DNA from: Chloroflexota bacterium | Lineage (GTDB): Bacteria; Chloroflexota; Anaerolineae; UBA4142 | NCBI GenBank assembly: GCA_016215025.1 | Contig: JACRMI010000144.1 | Span: 1 to 64,000, forward strand | Direction of reading: 5' to 3' | DNA length: 64,000 nt | Part shown: piece by piece, positions 10,221 to 24,480 of the stretch | Layout of the letters: each line of letters opens with the position of its first letter | Numbering within the stretch: position 1 is the first letter of the stretch | The notes under the pieces: generated by a model | What the model saw: the letters and a program-made list of their open reading frames with translations, nothing else | What the model was told of the DNA's origin: nothing | Database searches by the model: none | Program-made: the position numbers and the translations under genes

Positions 10221-10895
10221 CTATGTGCCTTCTGGACGTGGCACATCATCTATCGATGCTAGCCCTTCTTTCAGCGCGTAAAGCGCGGCTTGCGTACGGC
10301 TCGCCAGGTGCAATTTGCTCAAGATGTTGCTGACGTGCGTTCGCACCGTCATTTCGACAATCACCAATTGCTCGGCGATTTCTTTATTATTCCGTCCTTG
10401 GGCAATCAGTCGCAAGATTTCCATCTCGCGCTCGGTGAGGGGATCAATCGTTATGGGCTTTTTTGACGCGCCCGTCATCTCAGTTAGCACTTTGCGCGCA
10501 ATCGACGGTGCGAGCGATGGCTCGCCGCGATACACTTGATGAATCGCTTGCACCAATTCATCCGGTCCCGAATCTTTGAGTAAATAACCGAGCGCTCCAG
10601 CTTTAATCGCTGGAAACACTTTGTCGTCTGCGGCAAAACTGGTGAGCACAAGAATGCGCGTGCCTGGTTGATCGGTAGTGATTCGTCGTGTTGCTTCGAT
10701 GCCATCCATCTTGGGCATGACCAGATCCATCAGAATCACGTCGGGCTTTAGGGCTAGGGTTTGCGCGACGGCTTCCACACCATCGCCCACTTCGCCGACG
10801 ACTTGGATGTCTTTCTCAGTCGCCAGCAAAGCCCGAATGCCTTTGCGAACAATTGCGTGATCGTCAACGATCAAAACACGAATCGGTGTAGTCAT
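10221..10895 (-). CDS. NarL/FixJ-family response regulator
   Basis: A 224-residue regulator: receiver domain (about 5-120) with VDDHAIVRKG, phospho-acceptor Asp in VILMDLVMPK, Thr in VLTSFA and Lys in YLLKDS, then a LuxR-type helix-turn-helix (about 150-210) with LTEREMEILRLIAQG and NKEIAEQL. Start MTTPIRVL has GGAGGAAC before it and overlaps the kinase stop as ATGA, so the two are translationally coupled. It is the DNA-binding partner of the sensor kinase and may act at the CTAC/GTAG elements nearby; that link is inference. Confidence 0.92.
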   Translation of the reverse strand: MTTPIRVLIVDDHAIVRKGIRALLATEKDIQVVGEVGDGVEAVAQTLALKPDVILMDLVMPKMDGIEATRRITTDQPGTRILVLTSFAADDKVFPAIKAGALGYLLKDSGPDELVQAIHQVYRGEPSLAPSIARKVLTEMTGASKKPITIDPLTEREMEILRLIAQGRNNKEIAEQLVIVEMTVRTHVSNILSKLHLASRTQAALYALKEGLASIDDVPRPEGT

Positions 10896-13800
10896 GGTGT
10901 TCCTCCATTTGGCTTGTTTTGTATTGGTGCGCACACGCGGACTCGCGTTCCTTTGCTGACGGCGCTATCGATTTCGAGAGTTGCTCTAATTCTCTCCGCG
11001 CGTTCTTGCATTCCCGATAAACCAAAGCCGCCGAGCTGCGCAATGGTTGGCTCAAAGCCGACGCCATCGTCATTGATTTCCATGACAACTAGCGTTTCCG
11101 CAAAACACAAATGCACCTGGACGTGATGTGCCTGCGCGTGCTTGAGCGTATTATTGAGCGCTTCGAGCGCGATGTTGTAGAGTTCCGTCTGCTGGACCAG
11201 CGATAAATGCTCTTCGCCATCTACATGCAGCTCGGCTTGGACGCCGCCGCGCAATTCGACGGAATCTAAACGAGTTTGCAATGCGTTTACCAGTCCATGC
11301 TCCAAAGCGGGCGGGCGCAATTCAAAGATGAGCAAGCGCATTTCGCGCAATGCTTCTTGCGCCGTGTCGCGTAAATCACGCAAGCGACCTGCCGCCGCTT
11401 CGGTCTGTCCCGCGGTGAGCAAACGCGCGGTTGCTTCGGCGTACAAGGTCATGCTGTAGAGTGACTGCGTGACCGAATCGTGCAGTTCGCGCGCGAGCCG
11501 ACTGCGTTCCGCCATCTGCGCCGATTGTTCGGCGCGTTCGTACAGACGTGCATTTTCCACCGCTACGCCGATTTGTTGTCCAATCGTTTTCAACAGGGCG
11601 ATTTGTTCCGGCGGATATGTGCGCAAGCGATTCGTGCTGAGATTGAGCGAGCCGACAAATCTACCTTTTGCCATCAATGGAATCGCAATGACTTGCTGAA
11701 CGCCCTGGCTTGCCAATCGGTGTTTGATTGCGCTCTGTGTAGGCAACTCGGCAAGCGACCAGATCTTTGGCTCGCTGTGACGACCTGCCACACCCGCCGC
11801 GCTTTCGCCCACAGGCACGCCATCGCCGAGGTTGGCATAGTCTGGTGGGAAACCGCGCAACGCCATCACGCGCAGATAGGCAGGTTCCCCATTCGCATTT
11901 TCATTTTGATCGCCACCCACGCAATAGGCGATGCCGTGTTCCATTCCCGTCAGTTCCATCAACCTTTGCAAAGCGTCTGCCATGATTTCTTTTAAATCAA
12001 GTGAGCGGCTCACACTGGCGGCAATGGCGTTGAGCGTTGCTAGTTCGTCCGTGCGTTCGGCGACGTGTTGTTCTAGCGTGCGGTATGCTTCTTCCAGTTT
12101 TTGCGCGGCAAGTTTTTGCTCGGTGATGTCTTCGACCATTCCTAGGCGATAAACCACTCGGCCTTGCTCGTCACGCACGACCGAGCGAATCATGCGTCCC
12201 CACACAAGTCCGCCATCTTTGCGGATATAACGTTTTTCAATCTGATACTGATCGCGTTGTCCACTGGCGATTTCATTCTCCAGAGCCAGTTGAATTGGAT
12301 AATCATCTGGATGTGTATAGTGAAGCGTGTGAAGGTGGCTCAATTCTTCCAGACTATATCCCAGGATTTTGCTGAGCGCAGGATTTGATTGAATCGCCAC
12401 ATCGCCCATATCGTCAATGGCTATCCCAATGCTAGCATTTTCAAACATGGTTCGGAACCGGGTTTCGCTCTTGCGCAATTCTTCTTCTGCCCGTTTGCGT
12501 TCTAATCCGCTCACAAAAATCTCGCCGACGATGCGGAGCAACGCAATTATTTCTTCACTCCAGGTCTTTTCCACGCGAACGGCGTCAAAGCCCAGGAGAC
12601 CAATCACTTGACCTTGATAAATCATCGGCACGTTGATGAACGAGAGGGGGGGATCCGTGTGGGACTGCATTCGTACGCGATCTGCTTGCGCGATCACCGG
12701 TAGATCGGCAAGGCGAGGCACATGCACGACCTGGCTTGCTTTGATCTGCGAGGTGGTCCACGGCAATAGACTCACCGATACGTCTTGATAGATTCCTTTG
12801 AGCGAGAGGATGCCTGCACGGCACCACTCGTGCAAATTCCTCATCTGGGTCCCATCACCGGAAAAACGAAAGACGTAACTGCGGTCACTCCCCGTAAAGC
12901 GTCCAATCGCCGCAAGTGATTGCTCAATTCCCGCGTCAATCTGGTCTGACTGAAGATTAATAAACTCCGTTGAAATATTAGTAATCAATCGCTCAAATGC
13001 CAGGCGATGTTGCAATGCTTCTTCGGCGTTTCGACGTTCATTCAATTCGGATTGCACAGCGGTGTGGAGAGAAGCGTTCTGCATGGCAATGTTGGCGAGA
13101 TTTGCAAATTGCGTTGCCAACGCTTGCTCTTGCTCATCAAAAGACGCGTCAGTGGCATTGCGCGTCAAGCCAATCACTCCAATCACTTGTCCCTTAGATT
13201 TGAGCGGCACGCCCATCGCAGGTCCGATGGCATCACCTTCAAAGGTGGAAGATCGTCCCGACCACGCCTGGTAATTTTCAATCACGAGCGGTTCGCCCAT
13301 CTCAAAAATTTTCCCCGACAGACCCTCGCCACGTTTTAAGCGCAAGCCCTGGTATCGACGGAACATGCCCGTCGCCATTTTAAGTTCTAGAGCATCCTGC
13401 GCAGGTGTCACAAGGTATACCCAGCCGTATGCTACGCCCACCAGTGGGACGACCCGCTCGAGCAACTTTTCCAATAACTCGTCGACATCCAACTCGCTCA
13501 TCACATCGAGTGTGGTCTCGTATAACGCGCGAAGGTAGGCATTCTGTCGCTGCATTTCCTCTTCGGCGCGTTTGCGGTCGGTGATGTCCGTATGCGAACC
13601 CACCATGCGATATGTTTTGCCTTCGGCGTCGCGCAAAGCAATCCCACGTGACAAAATCCAGCGGTACGATCCATTCTTGTGCCGCAAACGATGCTCCAGG
13701 ACATACTCGGACTCCGTGCCTTTCACATCTGCTTTCGACCGTGCTACAGCTCGTTCATAGTCCTCGGGATGAACGAGAGCGAGCCATGCCTCATTCCGAT

Positions 13801-14308
13801 TTGCAATTTCGTCATCGACATAGCCCAACATGCTTTTCCAACGCGGTGAGTAATAGACTTCGCCCGTACGAGTATTCCAATCCCAGATTCCGTCGTTGGT
13901 GGCGCGCATGACGAGATTCAATCGTTCTTCACGCGCCTTGATTTCAGTAACATCATGAACGACTGAAAGATTGTAGCGTGTGCCGTTGAAATCGATCACT
14001 TTAGCCGATACCAACACTTGACGCAGATTGCCGTCCTTCGTTCGCGCTAGGTGTTCAAAATCGCGAATTGCGCCGGTCGCATTTAACTGTTGAGTAAGTT
14101 TCGCGCGCTCTTCCGGATGCACCCAGATGTTCAATCCGAGCGATGTATTGCCCATGACTTCTTGACAGGTATAGCCGAATAGACGCACCCAGGCATCGTT
14201 CACGCCCACATAACGCCCTTCGCCGAGTGTGGTAATGCTGGTGGGTAATGGATTAGCATGAAAGACCGGAGAAGAAGTCAGTTCGGATTCATCGTACCCT
14301 TCACGCAT
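10892..14308 (-). CDS. PAS/GAF sensor histidine kinase, NarX type
   Basis: An 1138-residue soluble kinase. Domains in order, approximate: PAS (17-120), PAS-PAC (130-250), GAF (270-425), GAF (445-605), PAS-PAC (615-735), short coiled coil, GAF (760-925), HisKA_3 with the phospho-acceptor His in RLARELHDSVTQ (about 940), and HATPase_c with NNTLKHAQ and DDGVGFEP. No membrane segment is seen, so it senses cytoplasmic signals; which GAF or PAS binds a cofactor cannot be told. It is co-transcribed with the regulator at 10221 (ATGA overlap). A TATAAT lies at 14378-14383 with no good -35, and a CTAC/GTAG palindrome is centred about 41 bp before the inferred start, which suits an activated promoter. 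Confidence 0.92.
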   Translation of the reverse strand: MREGYDESELTSSPVFHANPLPTSITTLGEGRYVGVNDAWVRLFGYTCQEVMGNTSLGLNIWVHPEERAKLTQQLNATGAIRDFEHLARTKDGNLRQVLVSAKVIDFNGTRYNLSVVHDVTEIKAREERLNLVMRATNDGIWDWNTRTGEVYYSPRWKSMLGYVDDEIANRNEAWLALVHPEDYERAVARSKADVKGTESEYVLEHRLRHKNGSYRWILSRGIALRDAEGKTYRMVGSHTDITDRKRAEEEMQRQNAYLRALYETTLDVMSELDVDELLEKLLERVVPLVGVAYGWVYLVTPAQDALELKMATGMFRRYQGLRLKRGEGLSGKIFEMGEPLVIENYQAWSGRSSTFEGDAIGPAMGVPLKSKGQVIGVIGLTRNATDASFDEQEQALATQFANLANIAMQNASLHTAVQSELNERRNAEEALQHRLAFERLITNISTEFINLQSDQIDAGIEQSLAAIGRFTGSDRSYVFRFSGDGTQMRNLHEWCRAGILSLKGIYQDVSVSLLPWTTSQIKASQVVHVPRLADLPVIAQADRVRMQSHTDPPLSFINVPMIYQGQVIGLLGFDAVRVEKTWSEEIIALLRIVGEIFVSGLERKRAEEELRKSETRFRTMFENASIGIAIDDMGDVAIQSNPALSKILGYSLEELSHLHTLHYTHPDDYPIQLALENEIASGQRDQYQIEKRYIRKDGGLVWGRMIRSVVRDEQGRVVYRLGMVEDITEQKLAAQKLEEAYRTLEQHVAERTDELATLNAIAASVSRSLDLKEIMADALQRLMELTGMEHGIAYCVGGDQNENANGEPAYLRVMALRGFPPDYANLGDGVPVGESAAGVAGRHSEPKIWSLAELPTQSAIKHRLASQGVQQVIAIPLMAKGRFVGSLNLSTNRLRTYPPEQIALLKTIGQQIGVAVENARLYERAEQSAQMAERSRLARELHDSVTQSLYSMTLYAEATARLLTAGQTEAAAGRLRDLRDTAQEALREMRLLIFELRPPALEHGLVNALQTRLDSVELRGGVQAELHVDGEEHLSLVQQTELYNIALEALNNTLKHAQAHHVQVHLCFAETLVVMEINDDGVGFEPTIAQLGGFGLSGMQERAERIRATLEIDSAVSKGTRVRVCAPIQNKPNGGTP

Positions 14309-14869: not shown

Positions 14870-17527
14870 ATGAGTGCTTCAGTGCTGATGACCAAGCTTC
14901 ATATCCCAGTCGTGTCTCGCAAGCTCGTGTCGCGCTCGCGCCTCCTCGCGCAACTTGCCGATGGATTGATTCGTCCGCTCACGCTCGTCTCCGCGCCTCC
15001 AGGATTCGGCAAGACAACCTTGCTGGCTGAATGGATTTCAGATTCTGCCACGAGCAATCTACAATTTTGTTGGCTTTCGCTCGATAACGACGATAACGAG
15101 CTCACCCGTTTTCTGACATACGTCATCGCCGCGCTGGCAACGCTCAAACACGGAATCGGCGATGCGGCGCTGATTCTCCTGCAAGCCCCGCAACCCCCGC
15201 CACTCAAAACCATCGTCACCGCTCTCATCAACGACCTGGAATCAATCCCCGTTCCATACACGCTCGTCCTCGATGATTATCACGTCATAACGACTCCGCC
15301 GATTCACGAAGCCATCAGTTATCTGCTCGATCATCTCCCGCCCCAAATGCACCTAGTCATCCTCACGCGCGCGGATCCACCTCTCCCACTCGCGCGATTG
15401 CGCGCCCGCAATCAATTGGTCGAACTGCGCGCGAGCGATCTGCGCTTTACCCAGGATGAAGCGTCCGATTTTTTACGCCAAGTGACGGGCTTGAATCTAT
15501 CGGCGGGAGAAATTGCGACGCTGGAAGCGCGCACCGAGGGTTGGATCGCAGGATTGCAGATCGCCGCGCTTTCGATGCGTAGCCAAAATGACGTGGCAGG
15601 TTTCATCAAAGCGTTCACGGGCAGCAATCGTTTCATTTTGGATTATTTGGCAGAAGAAGTTTTCCACCATCAGTCCCAAGCCATCCAAGATTTCTTGGTG
15701 CAAACGTCAATTCTCGACCGCTTCACAGGTCCGCTGTGCGATGCGATTACGGAACAAACCGATGGCGCGCAGACTTTGGAATCGCTCGAACGCATCAATC
15801 TCTTTATCGTCTCGCTCGACAATCAACGCTGCTGGTATCGTTATCATCACCTCTTTGCCGATCTCTTGCGCGCTCGTCTGCGACGTGACGCGCCTCAACG
15901 CGTGCCCGATTTGCATCGTCGCGCGGCGCGCTGGTTCGAAAGCCAGGATGATGTTTTTGAAGCGTTGAAACATTGGTTCGCCGCGCGCGATTTTGCGCAA
16001 GCGGTTCGCGTGCTCGAGACGATTGGACTGGGTATGTTGGAACGCGGCGTTGTTCCGCAACTGCTCGGATGGATCAAGCAAATCCCTGCTGAACATATCC
16101 ACGCCCATTCCTGGCTAAATATCTATCACTGCTGGGCAATGCTCCTGACGGGACAATTCGGTGGACTCGTGGAGCGACTAGCCGCCGCCGAACACGAATT
16201 GCCCGACCGCGATCCAGATCGTCAGAGCAAGCTGGGACACATCGCCACCATTCGCGCGTACGTTGCCTTGATGAGTGAGGACTTGCCGCGCACGTTTCAA
16301 CTTGCCCGCCAAGCGCGCGAACTATTGCCGCCCGACGAAAGATCTATTCGAAGCGTTGTCGCTTTCATCCTGGGTAGCGCGAACGTGCGCGCTGAAAACT
16401 TGACGGACGCGGAGATATGCTATGCCGATGCGGCACGGCTGGGTGAGCAAGGCGGAAATGTCCACATCGCGCTCCCAGCATTGTGCATTCTGGCTGACCT
16501 GCGGGCGACGCGCGGCGGACTCCATCAGGCACTCCAAGCTTTTCAAGATGCTCTGCGATTGGGTACGGCGGAAAGCGGACATCCACTTCCCATTGCCTCG
16601 CGCGCGTTCGTGGGTATCGGGAATTTGCATCTCGAATGGAATGACCTGGTCTCTGCCGAGCGACACCTGGAAAAGAGTGTCGAGTTGAGCGCGCTGTGGG
16701 GCAATGCCGACACGCAAATGTATTGCAATCTCGCTCTGGCACGCTTGCGGCAGTTGCAAGGTAACCAGAACGATTCTTTGAGACTCTTGGAGGAGGCAAG
16801 GCAGATCGCGCGCTTTTCGACCATGACCATTCCAGCGCAAGCGTTGCTGGCGGCGTTTCAAATGCGCGTCTCGTTAGCAAACGGCGATTGGAAATCCGCC
16901 GTGCAGGTGGCGGAGCAACGCGGTTTGCGCCACGACGGAGAGTTGGGCTATGTGACCGAGATCGAGTACACCGCCTATGCGCGCGTGCTAATCGCTCAGG
17001 GCGATGTCGCGGCGGCAGACGCATTGTTGGAGCGGCTCTACCAAAAAGCCGAGGCGGGCAATCGCCGAGAGCGAATGATCGAGATTCTGATTCTCCGCGC
17101 ATTGGTCTTCCAAGCGCAAGGGGATATGTCTCAGGCATTGACGACGTTGGGCAATGCGCTGACTCTCGCGGAACCCGAGGGCTATGTACGCGTGTTCATT
17201 GATGAAGGCGCGCCGATGATCGAGTTGTTGCGGCGCGCTGGCTCGCGGGGAATCACGCCCCGTTACGTAACCCAGCTTCTTTCTGCTGCTACTCCCAAAT
17301 CCGAGACCAAAGAGCGCGCGGCTCAACCGCTCATCGAACCGTTGAGCGAGCGCGAGATCGAAATACTGGGTTTCATCGCGGCAGGATTATCGAATCAAGC
17401 GATTGCAACGAAACTGGTCGTCGCCGTCGGAACCGTCAAAGCGCACACCGCCAGCATCTATCGCAAACTGGACGTAGCCAGTCGGACGCAAGCCGTTGCG
17501 CGCGCGCGGGATTTGAATTTGATCTAA
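14870..17527 (+). CDS. MalT-type LuxR-family transcriptional activator
   Basis: An 885-residue STAND ATPase regulator. It has an N-terminal P-loop (APPGFGKTT, residues 42-50) and a Walker B-like LVLDDYH near 135. A long helical/TPR-type region (about 370-800) follows, then a C-terminal LuxR helix-turn-helix (about 825-885; LSEREIEILGFIAAG and TVKAHTASIYRKL). Such proteins bind ATP and an inducer, oligomerise and activate transcription. Start MSASVLMT is chosen by GGAGGGAGGG; an in-frame ATG 12 codons earlier overlaps the promoter. The next three transcription units on this strand carry an identical-spacing promoter element, so this protein is a candidate activator for them. Confidence 0.9.
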   Translation: MSASVLMTKLHIPVVSRKLVSRSRLLAQLADGLIRPLTLVSAPPGFGKTTLLAEWISDSATSNLQFCWLSLDNDDNELTRFLTYVIAALATLKHGIGDAALILLQAPQPPPLKTIVTALINDLESIPVPYTLVLDDYHVITTPPIHEAISYLLDHLPPQMHLVILTRADPPLPLARLRARNQLVELRASDLRFTQDEASDFLRQVTGLNLSAGEIATLEARTEGWIAGLQIAALSMRSQNDVAGFIKAFTGSNRFILDYLAEEVFHHQSQAIQDFLVQTSILDRFTGPLCDAITEQTDGAQTLESLERINLFIVSLDNQRCWYRYHHLFADLLRARLRRDAPQRVPDLHRRAARWFESQDDVFEALKHWFAARDFAQAVRVLETIGLGMLERGVVPQLLGWIKQIPAEHIHAHSWLNIYHCWAMLLTGQFGGLVERLAAAEHELPDRDPDRQSKLGHIATIRAYVALMSEDLPRTFQLARQARELLPPDERSIRSVVAFILGSANVRAENLTDAEICYADAARLGEQGGNVHIALPALCILADLRATRGGLHQALQAFQDALRLGTAESGHPLPIASRAFVGIGNLHLEWNDLVSAERHLEKSVELSALWGNADTQMYCNLALARLRQLQGNQNDSLRLLEEARQIARFSTMTIPAQALLAAFQMRVSLANGDWKSAVQVAEQRGLRHDGELGYVTEIEYTAYARVLIAQGDVAAADALLERLYQKAEAGNRRERMIEILILRALVFQAQGDMSQALTTLGNALTLAEPEGYVRVFIDEGAPMIELLRRAGSRGITPRYVTQLLSAATPKSETKERAAQPLIEPLSEREIEILGFIAAGLSNQAIATKLVVAVGTVKAHTASIYRKLDVASRTQAVARARDLNLI

Positions 17528-17534
17528 CTCAGCC

Positions 17535-17760
17535 CCCGCGTCATTTCGAGTGGAACGAGAAATCTCTGTAGCGAAAACGAGATTTCGCGGCGCGAAAACC
17601 GCGCCTACCCAGAACATGTCATTTCGACGAGCGCAGTTTGCGACGAGAAATCTCGCCATGACTGGAGATTTCTCGTCGGCACACCCCGCCTCCTCGAAAT
17701 GACAGTTCTTGCCTGGCAATATATCGCCGCGCGGTATGTATTCTCGAAATGACAGAGTGA
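17535..17760. repeat. Palindromic repeats, GTCATTTCGA family
   Basis: Copies of a dispersed palindrome. One copy runs from 17618 to 17703, with arms GTCATTTCGACGAGCGCAGT / CTCCTCGAAATGACA and an inner inverted GAGAAATCTCG. Partial copies lie at 17540-17600 and 17735-17757. The same family is at 40941. The 306-bp gap 17528-17833 holds no gene. Confidence 0.75.
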
Positions 17761-17833
17761 GCAGTAACGAATATTCAAAAGGCATTCGCCATCGCGGATG
17801 CCTTTTTGAATTCTCTTCTCGGCTAAACCCACG

Positions 17834-17889
17834 ATAAACCCTCAACCTATCTTCTGGCAGATGTTTGCAACGCGAGTGCATTGTAGAAT
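17834..17889 (+). promoter_or_regulatory. Shared promoter element, copy 1 (amidohydrolase)
   Basis: ATAAACCCTC at 17834, GGCAGATGT at 17856, TGTAGAAT at 17882 (-10 TAGAAT at 17884). The same boxes at the same spacing (22 and 26 bp) occur at 19552 and 21455. No consensus -35 is present at the right place, which points to activator dependence. Confidence 0.6.
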
Positions 17890-17904
17890 GCGGGCAAATC
17901 TTGA

Positions 17905-17999
17905 ATTGTCATTGCGAGGAGCGTTTTTTGCGACGAAGCAATCCCCTACTCTACGTTGGAGATTGCTTCGCAAAAACCGCTCGCAATGACAGGGGGGCC
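17905..17999. repeat. Palindromic repeat, CATTGCGAGGAGCG family
   Basis: Outer arms TTGTCATTGCGAGGAGCG / CGCTCGCAATGACA and inner arms GCGACGAAGCAATC / GATTGCTTCGC. It fills the untranslated leader between the promoter at 17834 and the amidohydrolase start, so it should fold in the mRNA. Confidence 0.8.
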
Positions 18000-18002
18000 A
18001 GA

Positions 18003-19496
18003 ATGAAAAGAATCGGTTATTACACATTGGTTGCGTTGTTCGTCGTTGTAGGGTTGGCATTACTCGCGCTGACCAACCTTGGCTTGCTGACGTTTCGCGC
18101 GCCGTATGTCGAATCTATCCCGATGCAATCCGCGCACCCAGCCATCGCATTTACAAACGTAAACGTCGTCCCGATGGACCGCGAACGCGTTCTGCAAAAT
18201 CAAACCGTTCTCGTTCGCAATGGCGTGATCGAAAAAATCGGTGAGCGCGTGGCTGTGCCAGCCGATGCGCTAATCGTTGACGGCACGAACAAGTACTTGA
18301 TGCCAGGTTTGGTGGATATGCACGTCCACATTCAGGACAAGAACGATCTGATCTTGCTCGCGGCGAACGGCGTGACAACGGTTCGCAATATGTGGGGCAA
18401 CACCGATGTGATGCTTCGTCTTGGCATGCCCGATCAATTGCAACTGCGCGAGCAAATCAAGCAAGGCAAACTTTTTGGTCCCACGATTTACACCACAGGT
18501 CCAGTAATGGAAGGCGATCCGTCCAACCATCCGTTGATGTCGGTTTTCAGGACGCCGCAAGAGGCGGAACAATCGGTCGCGTGGCAAAAGGCGCAAGGAT
18601 ACGATTTCGTCAAAGTGTACGACCATCTCAATCTGGAAACATATCGCGCGATTGTGCGCGCGGCGAAGCAAAACGGAATGCCAGTGGTCGGTCACGTACC
18701 GAAAGCGGGCGGCATTGACGAGGTATTGTCGAGCGGTCAAGTTACGATTGAACATCTGCAAGGATACATCGACGCGGACGCGGCAGAGTTCCTGATCGCG
18801 CCAGAACGCATCGCCGAGTACGCGAACAAGACGCGCGCGGCAGGCGTGTGGAATGCTCTGACGCTGGCACTGTATCCGAAAAATAGTCTGCCCGCCGAAG
18901 AGGTCGCCAAGTTGGAAAAGCAAGTCGCGATGAAGTACACTTCGCCCAGCGCGCAACTAACGACGCGAATCTTGTACGATCAGATGAGCCAGGGACATAC
19001 CTACACGGGCGCAGATTACGCGACGCGCATCGCGGCGTTGAACAAACGAATGATGAAAGCCCTGCGCGAGGCGGATGCCAGGTTCATCCTCGGCACCGAT
19101 GCGTCGAATCCGTACCACATCCTGGGTTTCTCGGCGCACGAAGAACTTGCGGCGATGGTGGAGGCAGGACTAACGCCATACGAAGCGCTCGTGGCTGGAA
19201 CGCGCAACGCGGCAGAAGCGTTGGGCAAATCATCCGAGTTTGGCACGGTGACCGAAGGCAAACGCGCCGACTTGATTTTGGTCGAAGCGAATCCGTTGGA
19301 GGATGTGGCGAACGCGAACAAACGCATCGGCGTAGTTTTGCGTGGGCAGTGGTTGCCTGAGCAAAAACTGCAAGCGATGTTGAACGGACTCGTGGATTCG
19401 TACACGCCGACTTTGATCGATCGCGGGTGGTCCCTCGTCCTCATCGTTGGAGTGGGGTTGGTTGTGCGGCGGCAACGCCGCGCACGGCAGGGATAG
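18003..19496 (+). CDS. Membrane-anchored amidohydrolase
   Basis: A 497-residue protein with an N-terminal membrane helix (about 6-28), an amidohydrolase domain and a second helix at the C-terminus (GWSLVLIVGVGLVV). Metal-site motifs of the imidazolonepropionase/prolidase-like subgroup are visible: HVH at 107-109, the likely bridging Lys in DFVKVYDH, His in VVGHVPK, His in TIEHLQG and Asp in LGTDAS. Such enzymes cleave amide or ester bonds with one or two zinc ions; the helices place this one at the membrane. The start at MKRIGYYT is chosen because the upstream frame is made only of the palindromic repeat. It carries copy 1 of the shared promoter. Confidence 0.83.
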   Translation: MKRIGYYTLVALFVVVGLALLALTNLGLLTFRAPYVESIPMQSAHPAIAFTNVNVVPMDRERVLQNQTVLVRNGVIEKIGERVAVPADALIVDGTNKYLMPGLVDMHVHIQDKNDLILLAANGVTTVRNMWGNTDVMLRLGMPDQLQLREQIKQGKLFGPTIYTTGPVMEGDPSNHPLMSVFRTPQEAEQSVAWQKAQGYDFVKVYDHLNLETYRAIVRAAKQNGMPVVGHVPKAGGIDEVLSSGQVTIEHLQGYIDADAAEFLIAPERIAEYANKTRAAGVWNALTLALYPKNSLPAEEVAKLEKQVAMKYTSPSAQLTTRILYDQMSQGHTYTGADYATRIAALNKRMMKALREADARFILGTDASNPYHILGFSAHEELAAMVEAGLTPYEALVAGTRNAAEALGKSSEFGTVTEGKRADLILVEANPLEDVANANKRIGVVLRGQWLPEQKLQAMLNGLVDSYTPTLIDRGWSLVLIVGVGLVVRRQRRARQG

Positions 19497-19551
19497 GGAT
19501 GTTGAGTAGAGACGTTCGCTATGCGGGTAACGTCTCTACACCACACCCAAG

Positions 19552-19607
19552 ATAAACCCTCGATTGAACTTTTGGCAGATGTCTGCACCTCGCAAGCGGT
19601 GTAGGCT
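19552..19607 (+). promoter_or_regulatory. Shared promoter element, copy 2 (NapH-like gene)
   Basis: ATAAACCCTC at 19552, GGCAGATGT at 19574, TGTAGGCT at 19600. Spacing identical to copy 1. Inferred start near 19614, 28 bp before the ATG. Confidence 0.6.
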
Positions 19608-19641
19608 GGCTACAAATCTGAAGAATAAACGGAGGCAAAGA

Positions 19642-20610
19642 ATGGAAAAAACACAAGGGATCAACCGCAAGACCAACTTGAATGTGAAAAGTCTAATTGT
19701 CGCAGGCGTCGTGATGCTTGCCTTCTGGGTGCTCGGCGCGGCGATGTGGCAATCATCGGGCGCGATCATGGCGCTGTTCTTCTTTGGCTACATCGGCACC
19801 TCCGTTGGCGTCGGCTTGGGACTGTATGCGGCATTGCCCAAACAAAAGAAACCGTTGGGTCGCCGAGTGTCGCTCCTCTTGGTCGGTTCATTCCTGATCG
19901 GGTTTGCCGCCATCTTGGGCGAAGAGAACATGCAAATCGAAGGCGCGTTCTTTGGATTGATGAGCGGCGTTATCCAAGCAGGTGTCATTCACTATTTGAT
20001 CGCCAAGATTTTTGGACCTGTTCTTTTCGGTCGTTTGTGGTGCGGCTGGGCGTGTTGGACAGTGATGGTTCTCGATCTCTTACCCTTCAAACGTCCCAGT
20101 GGTCGTCTGCCAGGCAAATGGGGCTGGATGCGATACTTGCACTTGGGTCTCAGTCTGGGTCTAGTTTGGACAGCGTGGAACATCTTTGGTTTCCAGGACG
20201 GAGCGATGGGCAAGACCGCGCTGGTTTGGTACGTCGTCGGAAACTTGTTCTACTACCTGGTCGGCATCGTTTTGGCATTCGCGCTCAAAGATAATCGCGC
20301 GTTCTGCAAATATATTTGCCCCGTCAGCGTCCCGCTCAAAGTCGCCTCGCGCTTTGCGCTATTCAAGATCGGAGCGACGGGAAACGAGTGTAACGACTGC
20401 GGCGCGTGCGTGAAAATGTGTCCGATGGATGTCCGCATCCCTGAATACATTCGCAACGGTGAGCGCGTGCTTTCAACCGAGTGCAGTCTGTGCCAAACGT
20501 GCATCACCGTCTGCGCGAAAGATTCGCTGAAACTCTCTTTTGGATTTGATCTGGGTGGCAAGGAATTGTTGAGGGAACGCAAATCATCAGCAGAGCGCGC
20601 GGTTGCGTAG
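19642..20610 (+). CDS. NapH/NosR-like membrane 4Fe-4S protein
   Basis: A 322-residue protein with about five or six membrane helices followed by two ferredoxin-type clusters: CNDCGACVKMCPMD and CSLCQTCITVCAKD. Conserved Cys also occur in the helices (RLWCGWACW) and in the FCKYICPVSV loop, as in the NapH/CcoG/NosR polyferredoxin group. It should pass electrons from the quinone pool or a cytoplasmic donor across the membrane. Start MEKTQGIN follows GGAGG. It heads an operon with 20623 and 20889 and carries copy 2 of the shared promoter. Confidence 0.82.
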   Translation: MEKTQGINRKTNLNVKSLIVAGVVMLAFWVLGAAMWQSSGAIMALFFFGYIGTSVGVGLGLYAALPKQKKPLGRRVSLLLVGSFLIGFAAILGEENMQIEGAFFGLMSGVIQAGVIHYLIAKIFGPVLFGRLWCGWACWTVMVLDLLPFKRPSGRLPGKWGWMRYLHLGLSLGLVWTAWNIFGFQDGAMGKTALVWYVVGNLFYYLVGIVLAFALKDNRAFCKYICPVSVPLKVASRFALFKIGATGNECNDCGACVKMCPMDVRIPEYIRNGERVLSTECSLCQTCITVCAKDSLKLSFGFDLGGKELLRERKSSAERAVA

Positions 20611-20622
20611 AGAGGAATTCGA

Positions 20623-20892
20623 ATGAATGCGAATGATCGTTTGATTCAATCAGCGCGTTACGAAATCTGTGTCCAGGGTTATCTGGGTGATCGTTGGGCT
20701 GGGTTGTTCGAGGACATGACTTTGGTTAGCGATGCCACCCAGGATACGACTACGCTCATCGGCGTTGTGCCTGACCAAGCTGCGCTACACGGCATCCTGG
20801 CGCGCATTCGAGACCTGGGTCTGCCGTTGTTGTCCCTGACGCGCATCGCCGACGAGACGAACCCCCAAAGAAAGGGAGACCCTGAAAAATGA
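20623..20892 (+). CDS. Conserved small protein
   Basis: An 89-residue soluble protein with the pattern YEICVQGYLGDRWAGLFEDM followed by QAALHGILARIRDLGLPLL. Small proteins with this DRWAxxF...DQAALHGxLxxxRDLGLPL pattern are frequent in Chloroflexota and actinobacteria and have no assigned role. It lies 12 bp after the NapH-like gene, and its TGA overlaps the ATG of the RDD protein. Confidence 0.7.
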   Translation: MNANDRLIQSARYEICVQGYLGDRWAGLFEDMTLVSDATQDTTTLIGVVPDQAALHGILARIRDLGLPLLSLTRIADETNPQRKGDPEK

Positions 20893-21458
20893 AATCAAGT
20901 ACATCACTGCGATATGCTGGATTTGTGAAACGCATGGTCGCTTTTGCGCTCGATTATCTGGTTATCGCGGTCTATGTCGTCGCCCTAGCCGTGACAACGC
21001 TCGGCATATTTCGGGTGTTGGAATTTGCTGGTCGCGCCGTAACCTTTCCGCAGAATCCCGTCATCGGGGATTTGATCGCGTTCTTTACGCTTGTCTTGCC
21101 AACGATTCTGTATTTCACTCTGCAAGAAAGTTCTGCTCGACAGGCAACTTGGGGTAAGCGCAAAATCGGGATTCGCGTGGTCAATGCAAATGGCGAAACG
21201 CTGACCAGGAAACAGGCGTTTGTGCGGTCGCTGGTAAAATTCCTGCCCTGGCAAATCGCGCATACCTGCCTTTTTCAAATCGAGGGTTTGCCCTTTGCGC
21301 CAGCGCAACCAGCACCGCTTGTGCTGATCGGCTTTGCGATTGTCTACGGATTGGTCGGAATGTATGCCCTATCGACGGTCATCTCAAAGAATCGTCGCGC
21401 GCCGTATGACTGGGCGGCGGGTTCGTATGTTATCCTAAACTCACATTCTCCAAAATAA
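20889..21458 (+). CDS. RDD-family membrane protein
   Basis: A 189-residue protein with three or four helices. The RDD signature residues appear as FVKRMVAFALDYLV at the first helix and YDWAAGSYVI at the end. RDD proteins are small membrane proteins linked in some cases to ion transport and envelope stress. It is translationally coupled to the gene before it (ATGA overlap) and is last in the operon with the NapH-like gene. Confidence 0.8.
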   Translation: MKSSTSLRYAGFVKRMVAFALDYLVIAVYVVALAVTTLGIFRVLEFAGRAVTFPQNPVIGDLIAFFTLVLPTILYFTLQESSARQATWGKRKIGIRVVNANGETLTRKQAFVRSLVKFLPWQIAHTCLFQIEGLPFAPAQPAPLVLIGFAIVYGLVGMYALSTVISKNRRAPYDWAAGSYVILNSHSPK

Positions 21459-21510
21459 ACCCTTGAATAAACTTTCGCCAGATGTGAGAGGCATCGTGGC
21501 ATGCTACACT
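21455..21510 (+). promoter_or_regulatory. Shared promoter element, copy 3 (double flavodoxin gene)
   Basis: ATAAACCCTT at 21455, GCCAGATGT at 21477, GCTACACT at 21503. Spacing identical to copies 1 and 2. It overlaps the last codon of the RDD gene; inferred start near 21517. Confidence 0.55.
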
Positions 21511-21544: not shown

Positions 21545-22852
21545 ATGAAAGCGATTCTTCTCGATGGTTCACATGCAAATGATAGCACGGACGAGCGCGT
21601 TCGCGCCGCGCTGACGACGCAACTGCAAGCCGAGGGCTGGGCGGTGGAGCACATCGTCTTGCGTGAGAAAAAAATCGGCAACTGCGCCGGCGATTTCTTT
21701 TGCTGGGTTCGCAGTCCCGGCGTGTGCAACGTAAACGACGACAACCGCACGATCGCCGCATCAATCGTCGCCAGCGATTTGATGATCTATCTCACCCCGA
21801 TCACGTTCGGCGGATATTCCTCCGCGCTCAAGCGAATGGTGGACCACCAGATTCAGAACATTTCACCGTTTTTCACCAAGGTCGCGGGCGAGACCCATCA
21901 CGTCAAGCGTTACAAAAAATATCCCGATTTTCTGGCGGTGGGTTGGATGGGCGCACCCGACGTGCAAGCCGAAGCGGTGTTCCGTCATCTCGTCCAACGC
22001 AATGCGCTCAACTTTTACGCCAAAAAATCTGCCAGCGGAATAGTTTTGGCTAGCCAATCGGACGAGGAGATTCTGGCCTCAGCGCAGAAATGGTTGAACG
22101 ATCTAAAGAACGGTCGAGCGTCTCAAATGGCGGAACTGCCGACAAACCGTGAGCACAAGATCGGGGCAACTGAAATTCGGCGCGCATTGTTACTCGTGGG
22201 CAGTCCCAGAACGCGCAAGAGTTCATCGAATTCGCTCGGCGGATATCTTTTCGAGCAATTGAGCACGCGGTCCATTCAGGCCGAGCCGATTTACCTGCAC
22301 ACCGTTTTGCGCTCTCCCGAAAAGATGCAGGCATTGCTCGATGCGGTGGATGCGGCGGATCTGGTGACGCTGGCTTTTCCCCTGTATGTCGATTCACTGC
22401 CCGCGCCGGTGATCGAGGCGCTCGAACGCATCGCCGCGCACCGGCAAAACCGCGAAACGCGCCGACAGTTGTTCACCGCCATCGCCAACTGCGGTTTTCC
22501 CGAAGCGCATCATAATGCAACCGCGCTTGCAATTTGCGAAACCTTCGCGCGGCAAGCGGGGTTCGAATGGGCAGGTTCGCTGGCATTGGGCGGTGGTCCA
22601 ATGGTCAATGGCGTTCCGCTGGCTCAATTGGGCGGGCAGACCATCCTTATCCGCAAGGCGCTGGATCTGGCGGCTGAAGCGTTGGCGCAAGGACAGTCTA
22701 TCCCGCAAGCCGCGCAAGACATTATGGCGAAGCCTGTCATCCCGCATTGGGTGTACCGACTGATGGGCTGGAGGGGCTGGCTCCAAGGAGCCAAACACTA
22801 TGGCGCGATCAAGTTGCTCAAGCGCGCACCGTATTTGGCGAAGGCAAAATAA
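21545..22852 (+). CDS. Double flavodoxin-fold NAD(P)H-dependent FMN reductase-like protein
   Basis: A 435-residue protein with two flavodoxin-like domains in tandem. The first (about 1-190) starts MKAILLDGSHANDSTDERV, has the Cys-rich GDFFCWVRSPGVC segment typical of NADPH-dependent FMN reductases, and TPITFGGYSSALKRMVD. The second (about 205-420) starts ALLLVGSPRTRKSSSNSLG and has TLAFPLYVDSLPAPVIEALE. Each domain could bind FMN; relatives reduce quinones or iron. Most family members have one domain, so the fusion is unusual. GAAAGGGGATTCTG precedes the ATG. Confidence 0.8.
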   Translation: MKAILLDGSHANDSTDERVRAALTTQLQAEGWAVEHIVLREKKIGNCAGDFFCWVRSPGVCNVNDDNRTIAASIVASDLMIYLTPITFGGYSSALKRMVDHQIQNISPFFTKVAGETHHVKRYKKYPDFLAVGWMGAPDVQAEAVFRHLVQRNALNFYAKKSASGIVLASQSDEEILASAQKWLNDLKNGRASQMAELPTNREHKIGATEIRRALLLVGSPRTRKSSSNSLGGYLFEQLSTRSIQAEPIYLHTVLRSPEKMQALLDAVDAADLVTLAFPLYVDSLPAPVIEALERIAAHRQNRETRRQLFTAIANCGFPEAHHNATALAICETFARQAGFEWAGSLALGGGPMVNGVPLAQLGGQTILIRKALDLAAEALAQGQSIPQAAQDIMAKPVIPHWVYRLMGWRGWLQGAKHYGAIKLLKRAPYLAKAK

Positions 22853-22942
22853 CCCAGGTCATAAGAATCTGTGATATACTGGGCACGGTCACAAACTGCG
22901 GTTTTCTGAGCGTGAAAAAGCGCAATTTATGCCCGTTGGCAA

Positions 22943-22948
22943 TATAAT
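22943..22948 (+). promoter_or_regulatory. Candidate -10 of the beta-lactamase-fold gene
   Basis: TATAAT at 22943-22948; a second candidate TATACT is at 22875. No good -35 for either. The gap 22853-23016 holds nothing else. Confidence 0.35.
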
Positions 22949-23016
22949 AGATGAGATTCGAAATTGATCAACTCGAACAAACGATGTGTCTGTTCGATTC
23001 AAAAAAGGAGATTCTC

Positions 23017-24480
23017 ATGAACACTTTCAAACGTATTCGAACTTTGTTCGTCCTGCTGTACCTGACTCTGGTACTCGCACTGACCATTGAAATTGTCAAC
23101 GCCAGCCCAACGCTTCAGGGGAAGATGGATTTCGCCGCCATCGATGCTTTTATCGAAACCCAGCGGAAAGACTTGAGCATTCCAGGGATGGCGCTTGGCA
23201 TTGTGCAGGGTGATCAGATCGTCCATCTGCAAAGTTTTGGCGTGGCAGATTCTTCAGGACGGAAGGTTACGCCACAAACTCCCTTTTACATCGGCTCGCT
23301 CACCAAGTCGTTTACTGCGCTGGCGGTGATGCAACTAGTCGAAGCCGGAAAAATTGAGTTGGACACGCCCGTCCAAAAATACCTGCCGTGGTTCGAACTC
23401 GCCGACAAGGCGGCATCCGCCAAGATCACGGTGCGCCATCTGCTCAACCAGACTACGGGTATCTCGATCATAGATGGGAATCGCTTTTGGAACAGCCAAC
23501 TGGGGTTGGAGGAAACAGTGCGTGAATTTAAGACAATCCAACTCACTCAACCAGTGGGGACCACCTACCAATACAGCAACATCAACTACAGCATTGCAGG
23601 GTTGATCGTGGAAAAGGTCAGCGGGCAGTCTTATGCCGATTACGTGACCCAGCATATTTTTGAACCGCTCGACATGCGTCATTCCTACGCCTCCCGCGCG
23701 CTTGCAAAGGCGGATGGCTTGGCTGACGGTCACTATTACATGTTTGGTCGTGTCCTCGAATTTGAGGTTACCGTGGGTCCCGCTCAACTTCCCTTCGGGT
23801 TTCTGATGGCTAGTGTTGAGGATATGTCACAATACGCGATTGCCCAGCTAAATGACGGACGCTATGGCAAATCTTCTATTCTCTCTCCGCCCGGGATTGC
23901 CGAGCTTCACGCCCCTGCAATTCCCATGCGGGGAGATCAGCATTATGCCTTGGGCTGGAATATTAGTCCTTTGGATGGGAAGCCGATTGTCTGGCACAAT
24001 GGGGACACTGGGCGCAACCATTCTATAATAATGCTGATGCCTGAACGCGGTTTGGGATTCGTCCTGCTTGCCAATGCCAGCGGTTTTGAGCAGTTAGATC
24101 AAGTTGATAATGTAGCCATCGGCGTATTGAACATGCTGAATGGCAAATCGCCAAGTCCTGTCTCTCTGCCTTTCCCTTCACGCTTCCTCTATTGGACCAT
24201 TCTGCTGACACCGTTGCTGATGATTATGGGCATTGCGTACAGTTGGCGGCACTGGCGAAACAAGGGAGTCGGTCACATCCTCTTGACGGTGGTTCTATAC
24301 GGTGGTGTCGCCTTATTCTGGTTGTTCGGTATACCCCAGGTGATTACATCTCCAATCTTGCCGGGAATTTGGTTCTTCTATCCTGAGCTTGCTTGTGGTT
24401 TGATCGCGGGTGCTACGCTTGGGATTGGCTGGAGCGTCATCTACACAGTGATGAACCTGAGGGCGCGGAGATCGAAATAA
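23017..24480 (+). CDS. Class C beta-lactamase-fold serine hydrolase with C-terminal membrane helices
   Basis: A 487-residue protein with a signal/anchor at 8-28, a serine hydrolase domain (about 38-375) and three or four membrane helices at about 388-480. Catalytic motifs: SLTK at 94-97 (nucleophile Ser and general base Lys), YSN at 186-188, and HNG in VWHNGDTG near 330. Such proteins are esterases, D-aminopeptidases or penicillin-binding-like enzymes more often than true beta-lactamases. The start MNTFKRIR follows AAAGGAG. Confidence 0.85.
   Translation: MNTFKRIRTLFVLLYLTLVLALTIEIVNASPTLQGKMDFAAIDAFIETQRKDLSIPGMALGIVQGDQIVHLQSFGVADSSGRKVTPQTPFYIGSLTKSFTALAVMQLVEAGKIELDTPVQKYLPWFELADKAASAKITVRHLLNQTTGISIIDGNRFWNSQLGLEETVREFKTIQLTQPVGTTYQYSNINYSIAGLIVEKVSGQSYADYVTQHIFEPLDMRHSYASRALAKADGLADGHYYMFGRVLEFEVTVGPAQLPFGFLMASVEDMSQYAIAQLNDGRYGKSSILSPPGIAELHAPAIPMRGDQHYALGWNISPLDGKPIVWHNGDTGRNHSIIMLMPERGLGFVLLANASGFEQLDQVDNVAIGVLNMLNGKSPSPVSLPFPSRFLYWTILLTPLLMIMGIAYSWRHWRNKGVGHILLTVVLYGGVALFWLFGIPQVITSPILPGIWFFYPELACGLIAGATLGIGWSVIYTVMNLRARRSK

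Follow-up and report, generated by a model that had tools for sequence, protein, structure and literature searches.

The locus analyzed here raises the question whether three promoter-like elements that share the same boxes, and that are located next to the gene of a LuxR/MalT-type regulator, are operators of that regulator. The window is the entire 64,000-nucleotide stretch examined (contig JACRMI010000144.1 of assembly GCA_016215025.1, from a Chloroflexota bacterium of the class Anaerolineae). An earlier note on this sequence interpreted the elements as a local redox regulon with an undescribed operator. As judged from the sequence comparisons, it is highly probable that a single operator-promoter is present here in three copies and is read by the adjacent LAL/MalT-type activator, which would drive three transcription units (Table 1). 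This interpretation is based on direct observations: the sites, their spacing, their uniqueness in the genome, their retention beside orthologous regulators, and the covariation between residue and base seen in a sister clade.

Table 1. Position and properties of the features of the regulator locus.
Feature	Positions	Strand	Properties
LAL/MalT-type regulator, 885 aa	14870..17527	+	Pfam TPR_MalT 2.6e-77, GerE 8e-17
Intrinsic-terminator-like hairpin	17778..17806	+	12 bp stem, then T run; fold -17.5 kcal/mol, z -4.0
Operator-promoter copy 1	17834..17889	+	reads ATAAACCCTcaacctatcttctggCAGATGT; left box ATAAACCCT 17834-17842; right box GGCAGATGT 17856-17864, over the -35 position; -10 TAGAAT 17884-17889
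Amidohydrolase with N-terminal membrane anchor	18003..19496	+	Pfam Amidohydro_1 7.5e-27; anchor read from sequence; served by copy 1
Operator-promoter copy 2	19552..19607	+	reads ATAAACCCTcgattgaacttttggCAGATGT; left box 19552-19560; right box GGCAGATGT 19574-19582; -10 TAGGCT 19602-19607
NapH-like membrane 4Fe-4S protein	19642..20610	+	NapH/MauN family 1.4e-17, below cut-off; Fer4_5, Fer4_9
Small LAL-associated protein, 89 aa, unnamed family	20623..20892	+	predicted beta-alpha-beta-beta-alpha-beta (ferredoxin/ACT-like) fold
RDD-family membrane protein	20889..21458	+	Pfam RDD 6.4e-21; copy-2 operon
Operator-promoter copy 3	21455..21510	+	reads ATAAACCCTtgaataaactttcgcCAGATGT; left box 21455-21463; right box GCCAGATGT 21477-21485; -10 TACACT 21505-21510
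Protein with two flavodoxin/NADPH-dependent FMN-reductase-like domains	21545..22852	+	Pfam FMN_red 2.4e-21, two stretches; served by copy 3
Beta-lactamase-like serine hydrolase	23017..24480	+	Pfam Beta-lactamase 1.2e-71

Architecture of the three copies

The distance from the first A of the left box to the -10 hexamer, which has the form TAnnnT, is 50 nt in all three copies. The shared boxes and the -10-like boxes described in the earlier note are present, except that the right box of copy 3 reads GCCAGATGT instead of GGCAGATGT, and that the -10 hexamers start 2 nt further downstream, at 17884, 19602 and 21505. The bases between the boxes, which had been taken to differ, do so only in part: the middle stretch is shared with relatives, and so is a second, internal AATAAAC at +12 of copy 3, the left box of which overlaps the 3' end of the RDD gene. 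A 12 bp repeat is exact in copy 3 only, and the -35 box is clear in the window copies. A simple mirror-image palindrome was considered for the window sites and dropped because their symmetry is weak. Because no inverted-repeat relation between the right and left boxes is obvious in the window's clade, half-sites are assigned there with less certainty than in the sister clades.

The terminator-like hairpin is located between the regulator gene and copy 1; a position weight matrix (PWM) scan of the window detects no operator site upstream of the regulator gene itself, and Rfam yields no match. REP-like hairpins occur near the copies. In a sigma-70 consensus scan, no copy is called as a promoter and none has the consensus -35 hexamer, as expected where promoters lacking this hexamer need an activator.

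The gapped pattern ATAAACCCT-N11..15-CAGATGT has exactly three matches in the 7.74 Mb genome (194 contigs), all of them these copies (with the gap N15) and all within 4 kb of the LAL regulator gene; across the same genome, the other strand and the reversed control give 0 matches. There are no genome matches with 1 or 2 mismatches, and when up to 3 are allowed, the other 26 matches are at the background level given by the reversed pattern (14 + 13). In the PWM scan of the window, with a matrix that includes the three window sites, the copies score 40-46 bits and the next best site 6. Copies 1 and 2 share 72% identity along 75 nt, some flank included, and this similarity, along with the nearby REP-like hairpins, would fit a repeat that was recently duplicated or is mobile and that has no regulatory function. 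Such an origin is nevertheless extremely improbable: the copies lie at a fixed distance from the -10 before three unrelated operons, the boxes are retained in other families while the intervening bases diverge, and the genome contains no further copies.

Conservation next to orthologous regulators

The same composite promoter is found just downstream of the orthologous LAL gene, before the start of the small-protein gene, in six other genomes from several families (loci L101, L104, L105, L106, L147/L081 and L152/L082). This conservation indicates that the element is a conserved operator, with the adjacent LuxR/MalT protein as its likely reader, and supports both the local operator and the link to the activator proposed in the earlier note; the latter is further supported by the covariation of operator and recognition helix described below. 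More generally, the order LAL gene, its own operator, small-protein gene is found in over 100 relatives, and the operators differ by clade; variant sites are also located downstream of other LALs.

The spacing, identical within the window as previously noted, is not so across species, where the CAGATG box begins at an offset of 24 or 25 nt from the first A; the distance from CAGATG to the -10 is constant at 26. A pattern scan of 84,980 species genomes (box spacing 25, -10 at +51, TAnnnT required) produced 8 matches, 5 of them in Chloroflexota. Four of these 5 have a LAL gene on one side and a small-protein gene on the other, and the fifth is upstream of a small-protein operon; the remaining 3 matches look like chance. 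That a pattern with spacing 25 still finds real sites shows that the box spacing varies by one. The five Chloroflexota matches were chosen for TAnnnT, so that their -10 does not count as independent support; no such selection applied to L147, L152, L150, L144, L256, L161 and L195. The matches of a class-wide scan with 1 mismatch are mostly chance, and only L032, L039 and perhaps L035 match beyond the pattern.

The operators of the sister clades are built from direct and inverted repeats, with spacings of 12/13 and 22/23 bp. According to a repeat-geometry score, the half-site direct repeat at offset 12/13 is present in 41 of 44 sister-clade regions; the score took 300 nt per locus, and the operator of the window, which lies beyond that distance, is not among these regions. 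Within the genome analyzed, the closest paralogs of the regulator, C87 and C136, have variant sites directly downstream, with the -10 hexamers TACACT and TAAACT at the same distance as in the window copies. These variant sites are absent elsewhere in the genome, and the same holds for C68. The regulator protein has 67 matches in its genome, LuxR-type HTHs of other proteins included.

The fixed spacing to the -10 and the lack of a -35 hexamer are also compatible with a promoter of an alternative sigma factor, without an activator operator. We give hardly any credence to this possibility given that the conserved part reaches approximately -60 and varies together with the HTH of the neighboring LAL, that the sister-clade sites are arrays of direct and inverted repeats, and that a sigma factor would not explain why regulators within a single genome each have a different adjacent site.

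The regulator and an apparent residue-to-base rule

The regulator, which starts at ATG 14870 or TTG 14834, is a member of the LAL (large ATP-binding LuxR-type)/MalT-like STAND class: it contains a NOD ATPase with the Walker A motif GFGKTTL, a TPR_MalT region and a C-terminal GerE HTH with the recognition helix GTVKAHTASIY, and matches the MalT NOD structure 8bob (PDB) at 9.6e-59. It probably works like MalT but is not a MalT equivalog because its score against the NCBIfam MalT model NF003420, 510.9 bits, is under the cut-off of 537, and the conserved boxes are AATAAACCY and GGCAGATG, not the GGA(T/G)GA MalT boxes.

In the largest clade (TVKGH), the residue immediately preceding the Thr of the recognition helix predicts one base of the half-site: Ser or Pro is paired with CAATAC, and Asp or Asn with CAACAC, in 48 of the 48 scorable pairs. 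On a tree built without the HTH, both the residue and the base change 14 times, and all 7 supported independent switches are concordant (p 0.016); all 13 held-out loci agree with the rule. The mutual information at this residue column is 0.989 bit, the maximum possible, and that of the next best column is 0.39. A sister group obeys the same rule with ATCA[C/T]CAC, and the KSIY subgroup (STVRTHTKSIY, ATCCCCAC) departs from the simple rule. Recognition of DNA addresses across the regulator family seems to follow a simple residue-to-base rule. This rule was derived in another clade; its extension to the window is based on the loci in which Gly before the helix Thr, the residue found in the window's clade, is paired with AATAAAC, namely 9 loci of the window type or close to it, together with L292 and L301. 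L271 encodes a Gly protein without AATAAAC. In E. coli, MalT has Thr before the helix Thr, and malP has T at the code position.

The regulator is not the only candidate reader in this region. A divergent pair at 10221-14308, 3.5-7.6 kb from copy 1, encodes a PAS/GAF histidine kinase and a NarL-type response regulator that also contains a GerE (LuxR-type) HTH, and NarL-type HTHs bind paired heptamers (PMC4549865). It is very unlikely that this or some other regulator reads the sites: orthologous loci retain the site together with the LAL and the small protein, the ORF list of L082 shows no kinase-regulator pair, and in the sister clade the sites follow the LAL recognition helices. NarL-type regulators share the GerE HTH family and have inverted half-sites of about 7 bp, but are receiver-domain proteins controlled by phosphorylation that recognize 7-2-7 pairs, not a direct-repeat array, and form no local cassette (PMC4549865).

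Genes probably served by the operator and the small candidate partner protein

The NapH-like protein gene is the first in the copy-2 operon, followed by the genes for the small protein and the RDD protein. The beta-lactamase-like gene lacks an operator of its own, with no site in 22830-23020 in the PWM scan; genes resembling it are found at the orthologous loci L101, L104, L105 and L106. The redox regulon proposed in the earlier note is not established: the NapH-like Fe-S and double flavodoxin proteins are accompanied by an amidohydrolase, an RDD protein and a small protein of regulatory appearance, and the orthologous loci, in which the sequences were read by eye, carry other genes (CPBP, DUF385-like, alpha/beta-hydrolase and, often, beta-lactamase-like).

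No Pfam or NCBIfam family was found for the small protein, and it has no sequence relative in PDB; in a comparison of its family with Pfam BON_like, the best value is 0.0024, with 2 of 12 members matching. A Foldseek search against PDB, for which an AF2 model with pLDDT 86.9 is available, suggests an ACT/ferredoxin-like fold, with a weak E of 3.6e-3 (AHAS holo-enzyme chain, ACT-type). Among 130 family members, 111 have a LAL upstream on the same strand, and there are up to ten such genes per genome. These observations suggest that the small protein is a conserved companion of LAL regulators that may function as a feedback or sensory partner.

Comparison with MalT and a proposed mechanism

The multimerization of MalT depends on maltotriose and ATP. 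By analogy, we infer that the regulator of the window multimerizes upon binding an inducer and ATP. The LuxR-type HTH domains of the multimer would then bind two or more half-sites: the left box (AATAAACCCT, at about -60), a degenerate middle one 12-13 bp on, and the right box (GGCAGATG, over the -35). Bound 26 nt upstream of the -10, the regulator would recruit RNA polymerase to promoters without a -35 hexamer and so start three transcription units, for the amidohydrolase, for the NapH-like, small and RDD proteins, and for the double flavodoxin protein.

E. coli MalT has the same NOD-TPR-GerE STAND/LAL architecture and, in malP and pulA, uses several asymmetric half-sites, with a 13 bp direct repeat and one site at -35, an arrangement that is clear in the sister clades and, in the window, for the -35 box; the malP sites TCATCC and TCCTCC are 13 bp apart, and pulAp contains four MalT sites (PMC10427625). 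It differs in its box (GGA[T/G]GA vs AATAAACC/GGCAGATG in the window), whereas the window regulator, under the MalT equivalog cut-off, has no maltose genes among its predicted targets, and these lie directly beside its gene, with a candidate small protein partner. In the Actinoplanes study (PMC7567727), the MalT box is given as GGA(T/G)GA and overlaps the -35. In the same study, MalT of Actinoplanes sp. SE50/110 (ACSP50_3915; TCATCC-5nt-GGATGA) drives 17 promoters in one region, resembling the present case in that one -35-overlapping motif is repeated over neighboring promoters and in that the target genes are outside maltose metabolism; it comes from an actinomycete and has another motif, a perfect palindrome, and no small protein is reported in the sections consulted.

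The overlap of the right box with the -35 position is also typical of many repressors, so that the regulator could bind these sites and repress, as a local feedback repressor. We consider this unlikely and infer activation instead: none of the copies has a consensus -35, and the MalT-family members of known function that bind at -35 are activators (PMC7567727, PMC10427625).

Implications

In the literature searched, we found no paper on Chloroflexota LAL operators and no description of this operator, in agreement with the earlier note. The window probably represents one of many insulated cassettes across the phylum, each consisting of a LAL, its own operator and a ferredoxin-fold partner, with operators predictable from the recognition helix by a near one-residue/one-base N-cap rule (Ser/Pro-T, Asp/Asn-C, Gly-A). 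LAL/MalT-type regulators are numerous in this lineage, and the comparison assigns an operator and predicted targets to many of them from sequence alone. It also brings to notice a conserved small protein partner that no family model covers, and it makes base choice by LuxR-type helices testable through a single residue. If this reading of cassettes and rule is right, they would provide a ready-made kit of orthogonal activator-promoter pairs and a decodable specificity code for GerE-type HTHs.

The operator and its uniqueness in the genome

The three elements downstream of the LAL gene (LAL, large ATP-binding LuxR-type regulator, a MalT-like STAND protein with a C-terminal GerE HTH) are a real local operator. 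All are found where an earlier note had placed them, and each reads ATAAACCCT-N15-CAGATGT-N19-TAnnnT, with the -10 exactly at +50 from the first A; the boxes proposed in that note need one correction, the right box of copy 3 being GCCAGATGT. The layout in this clade includes a left box AATAAACC, a middle element GAAT..AC (exact AATAAAC in copy 3) and a right box GGCAGATG. In copies 2 and 3, the start codon is 35 nt past the -10 end; the leader of copy 1 is longer and includes a REP-like hairpin. None of the three copies is in the promoter list of a sigma-70 scan, which is consistent with activator-dependent promoters.

The first unit served encodes an amidohydrolase, the second a NapH-like Fe-S protein, an unnamed 89 aa protein and an RDD protein, and the third a double FMN-reductase-like protein; the label of redox regulon given to this set in the earlier note is not supported. 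A site scan of the window found no separate operator for the beta-lactamase-like hydrolase or the S66 carboxypeptidase. The REP-like repeats include the sequences TCATTTCGAG... and CATTGCGAGGAGCG...CGAAGCAATC.

Features of the regulator locus
Feature	Position	Description
PAS/GAF histidine kinase and adjoining LuxR-type response regulator	10221-14308	minus strand, divergent from the LAL gene
LAL/MalT-like regulator	14870-17524	TPR_MalT and GerE domains, MalT-like NOD
REP-like inverted repeats	17539-17710	between regulator and copy 1
Terminator-like hairpin	17778-17806	z -4.0; 250 nt past regulator gene end, copy 1 next
Copy 1 -10	17884	TAGAAT
REP-like inverted repeats	17907-17993	in amidohydrolase leader
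Stable hairpin	19497-19548	z -4.9, without T run; amidohydrolase gene 5', copy 2 3'
Copy 2 -10	19602	TAGGCT
Small protein	20623-20892	89 aa
Copy 3 -10	21505	TACACT
Beta-lactamase-like hydrolase	23017-24480	followed by S66 L,D-carboxypeptidase

Random occurrence of the pattern across the genome is not seen: a search of the assembly (7.74 Mb, 194 contigs) yields exactly three matches, copies 1-3, with none on the opposite strand or in the reversed control, and the extra matches obtained with three mismatches are background, equal in number to the control. The sites of three other LALs of this genome (C68, C87 and C136) occur once each, adjoining their own LAL. Among the LALs checked in this genome, the window's regulator, with three operator occurrences beside it, would be the only one to command three promoters rather than one.

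MalT belongs to the STAND activators, and a MalT multimer binds several sites (PMC10427625). As described in PMC7567727, the MalT box GGGGA(T/G)GAGG overlaps the -35, and in Actinoplanes one region contains 17 promoters that a MalT-like protein activates via TCATCC-5nt-GGATGA. The window's system is proposed to work alike, and activation by a MalT-like mechanism is likely. However, the regulator falls below the MalT equivalog cut-off and its operators lack the MalT box; hence, it is classified as LAL/MalT-like rather than MalT.

Conservation of the operator and its relatives

A class-wide scan of 396 genomes identifies two matches from other families (L032 and L039), both with TTTGG before or at CAGATG and with TAAATT or TAAGTT at +50. 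In each case, the site separates a LAL gene from one encoding a relative of the window's 89 aa protein. A composite-pattern scan of 84,980 species genomes gives 8 matches vs ~7 expected by chance across all phyla (our estimate, from 18 fixed bases, 257 Gb and both strands). Five of the 8 are in Chloroflexota, four of these located between a LAL gene and a small-protein gene, the fifth upstream of an operon whose last gene encodes the small protein. Owing to one surplus N in the scan pattern, the boxes of these matches are one base further apart; the distance from right box to -10 is the same. GT[VI]KAH is the recognition helix common to the orthologous regulators.

The gap 3' of LAL genes often holds a clade-specific site, e.g., ACAATAC...ACAATACTTTAGTATCTA...CAATACC, CAACAC variants, ATCACCAC...ATCACCACATGTGGTGAT...CTCACCACA and, in further gaps, TCCCCACA or ACCACAGTTT. 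The usual layout, which appears degenerate in the window's clade, combines an inverted copy with two direct ones, a repeat 12/13 bp upstream and another copy at 22/23 bp; the palindrome centre and the -10 are ~31 nt apart. In 44 of 106 gaps, none of 30 shuffles reaches the observed repeat score, with offsets of 12/13 in 41 and 22/23 in 42 of these. The LAL to small-protein gap of L268 (G352:C886) also contains, upstream of the usual operator, ~7 AATCACC(C/A)CATC repeats with a ~12 bp period, resembling an amplification of the activator array.

A probable residue-base code

In LALs with the TVKGH helix, Ser or Pro before the helix Thr pairs with CAATAC, and Asp or Asn with CAACAC, in 48 of 48 scorable pairs (L142 is a tie, two lack a call, and five were scored by eye). 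A tree that leaves out the HTH implies 14 changes in each trait, and 7 of 7 independent supported pairs are concordant on it (p 0.016; 14 pairs if all branches are counted). This column attains the highest possible mutual information, 0.989 bit (runner-up, 0.39), and all 13 previously unused TVKGH loci, some from one genus, agree. Judging by this covariation, the residue would decide one half-site base in TVKGH LALs. In the RTH clade, Asn pairs with ATCACCAC, and the sole Ser (L140) and sole Pro (L207) with ATCATCAC; Gly pairs with AATAAAC in the window's clade, and E. coli MalT has Thr, with sites TCATCC/TCCTCC. Some groups deviate from the code or were not decoded: the KSIY subgroup and several small ones (Y, H, L271). 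LALs with ST[VL]RTHTKSIY or KTIY pair with ATCCCCAC half-sites (L203, L174, L227, L210, L159, L212, L293), an exception to the Ser-T rule; compared with the ATCACCAC group, they also carry Ser or Thr instead of Asn before IY.

The covariation argues strongly, though indirectly, for binding of each LAL to its adjoining site. With the site recurring beside orthologous LALs, the proposed tie to the adjacent LuxR/MalT protein is supported, and the local operator is almost certainly read by this LAL.

The companion small protein

The small protein, searched as an alignment, is present in 171 of 396 class genomes, with as many as 10 copies in one genome, and extends to further classes of the phylum. 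In 111 of 130 copies examined, a LAL C-terminus is encoded upstream on the same strand, mostly <600 bp away. No Pfam or NCBIfam model matches the family (the window's protein and relatives throughout L139-L302), whose consensus is YEIRVKGHLDxxWSDWFEGMTITxxxxGETLLTGxVxDQAALHGLLxKIRDLGLPLLSVNR. The predicted beta-alpha-beta-beta-alpha-beta fold (pLDDT 86.9) most closely resembles ACT and further ferredoxin-like domains, though with weak scores. A beta-lactamase-like serine hydrolase is again encoded downstream of the small protein near orthologous cassettes (L101, L104, L105, L106), which might point to a function related to the cell envelope or to esters/lactams. An operator code for a large regulator family, together with its companion small protein, is the wider and more interesting finding.
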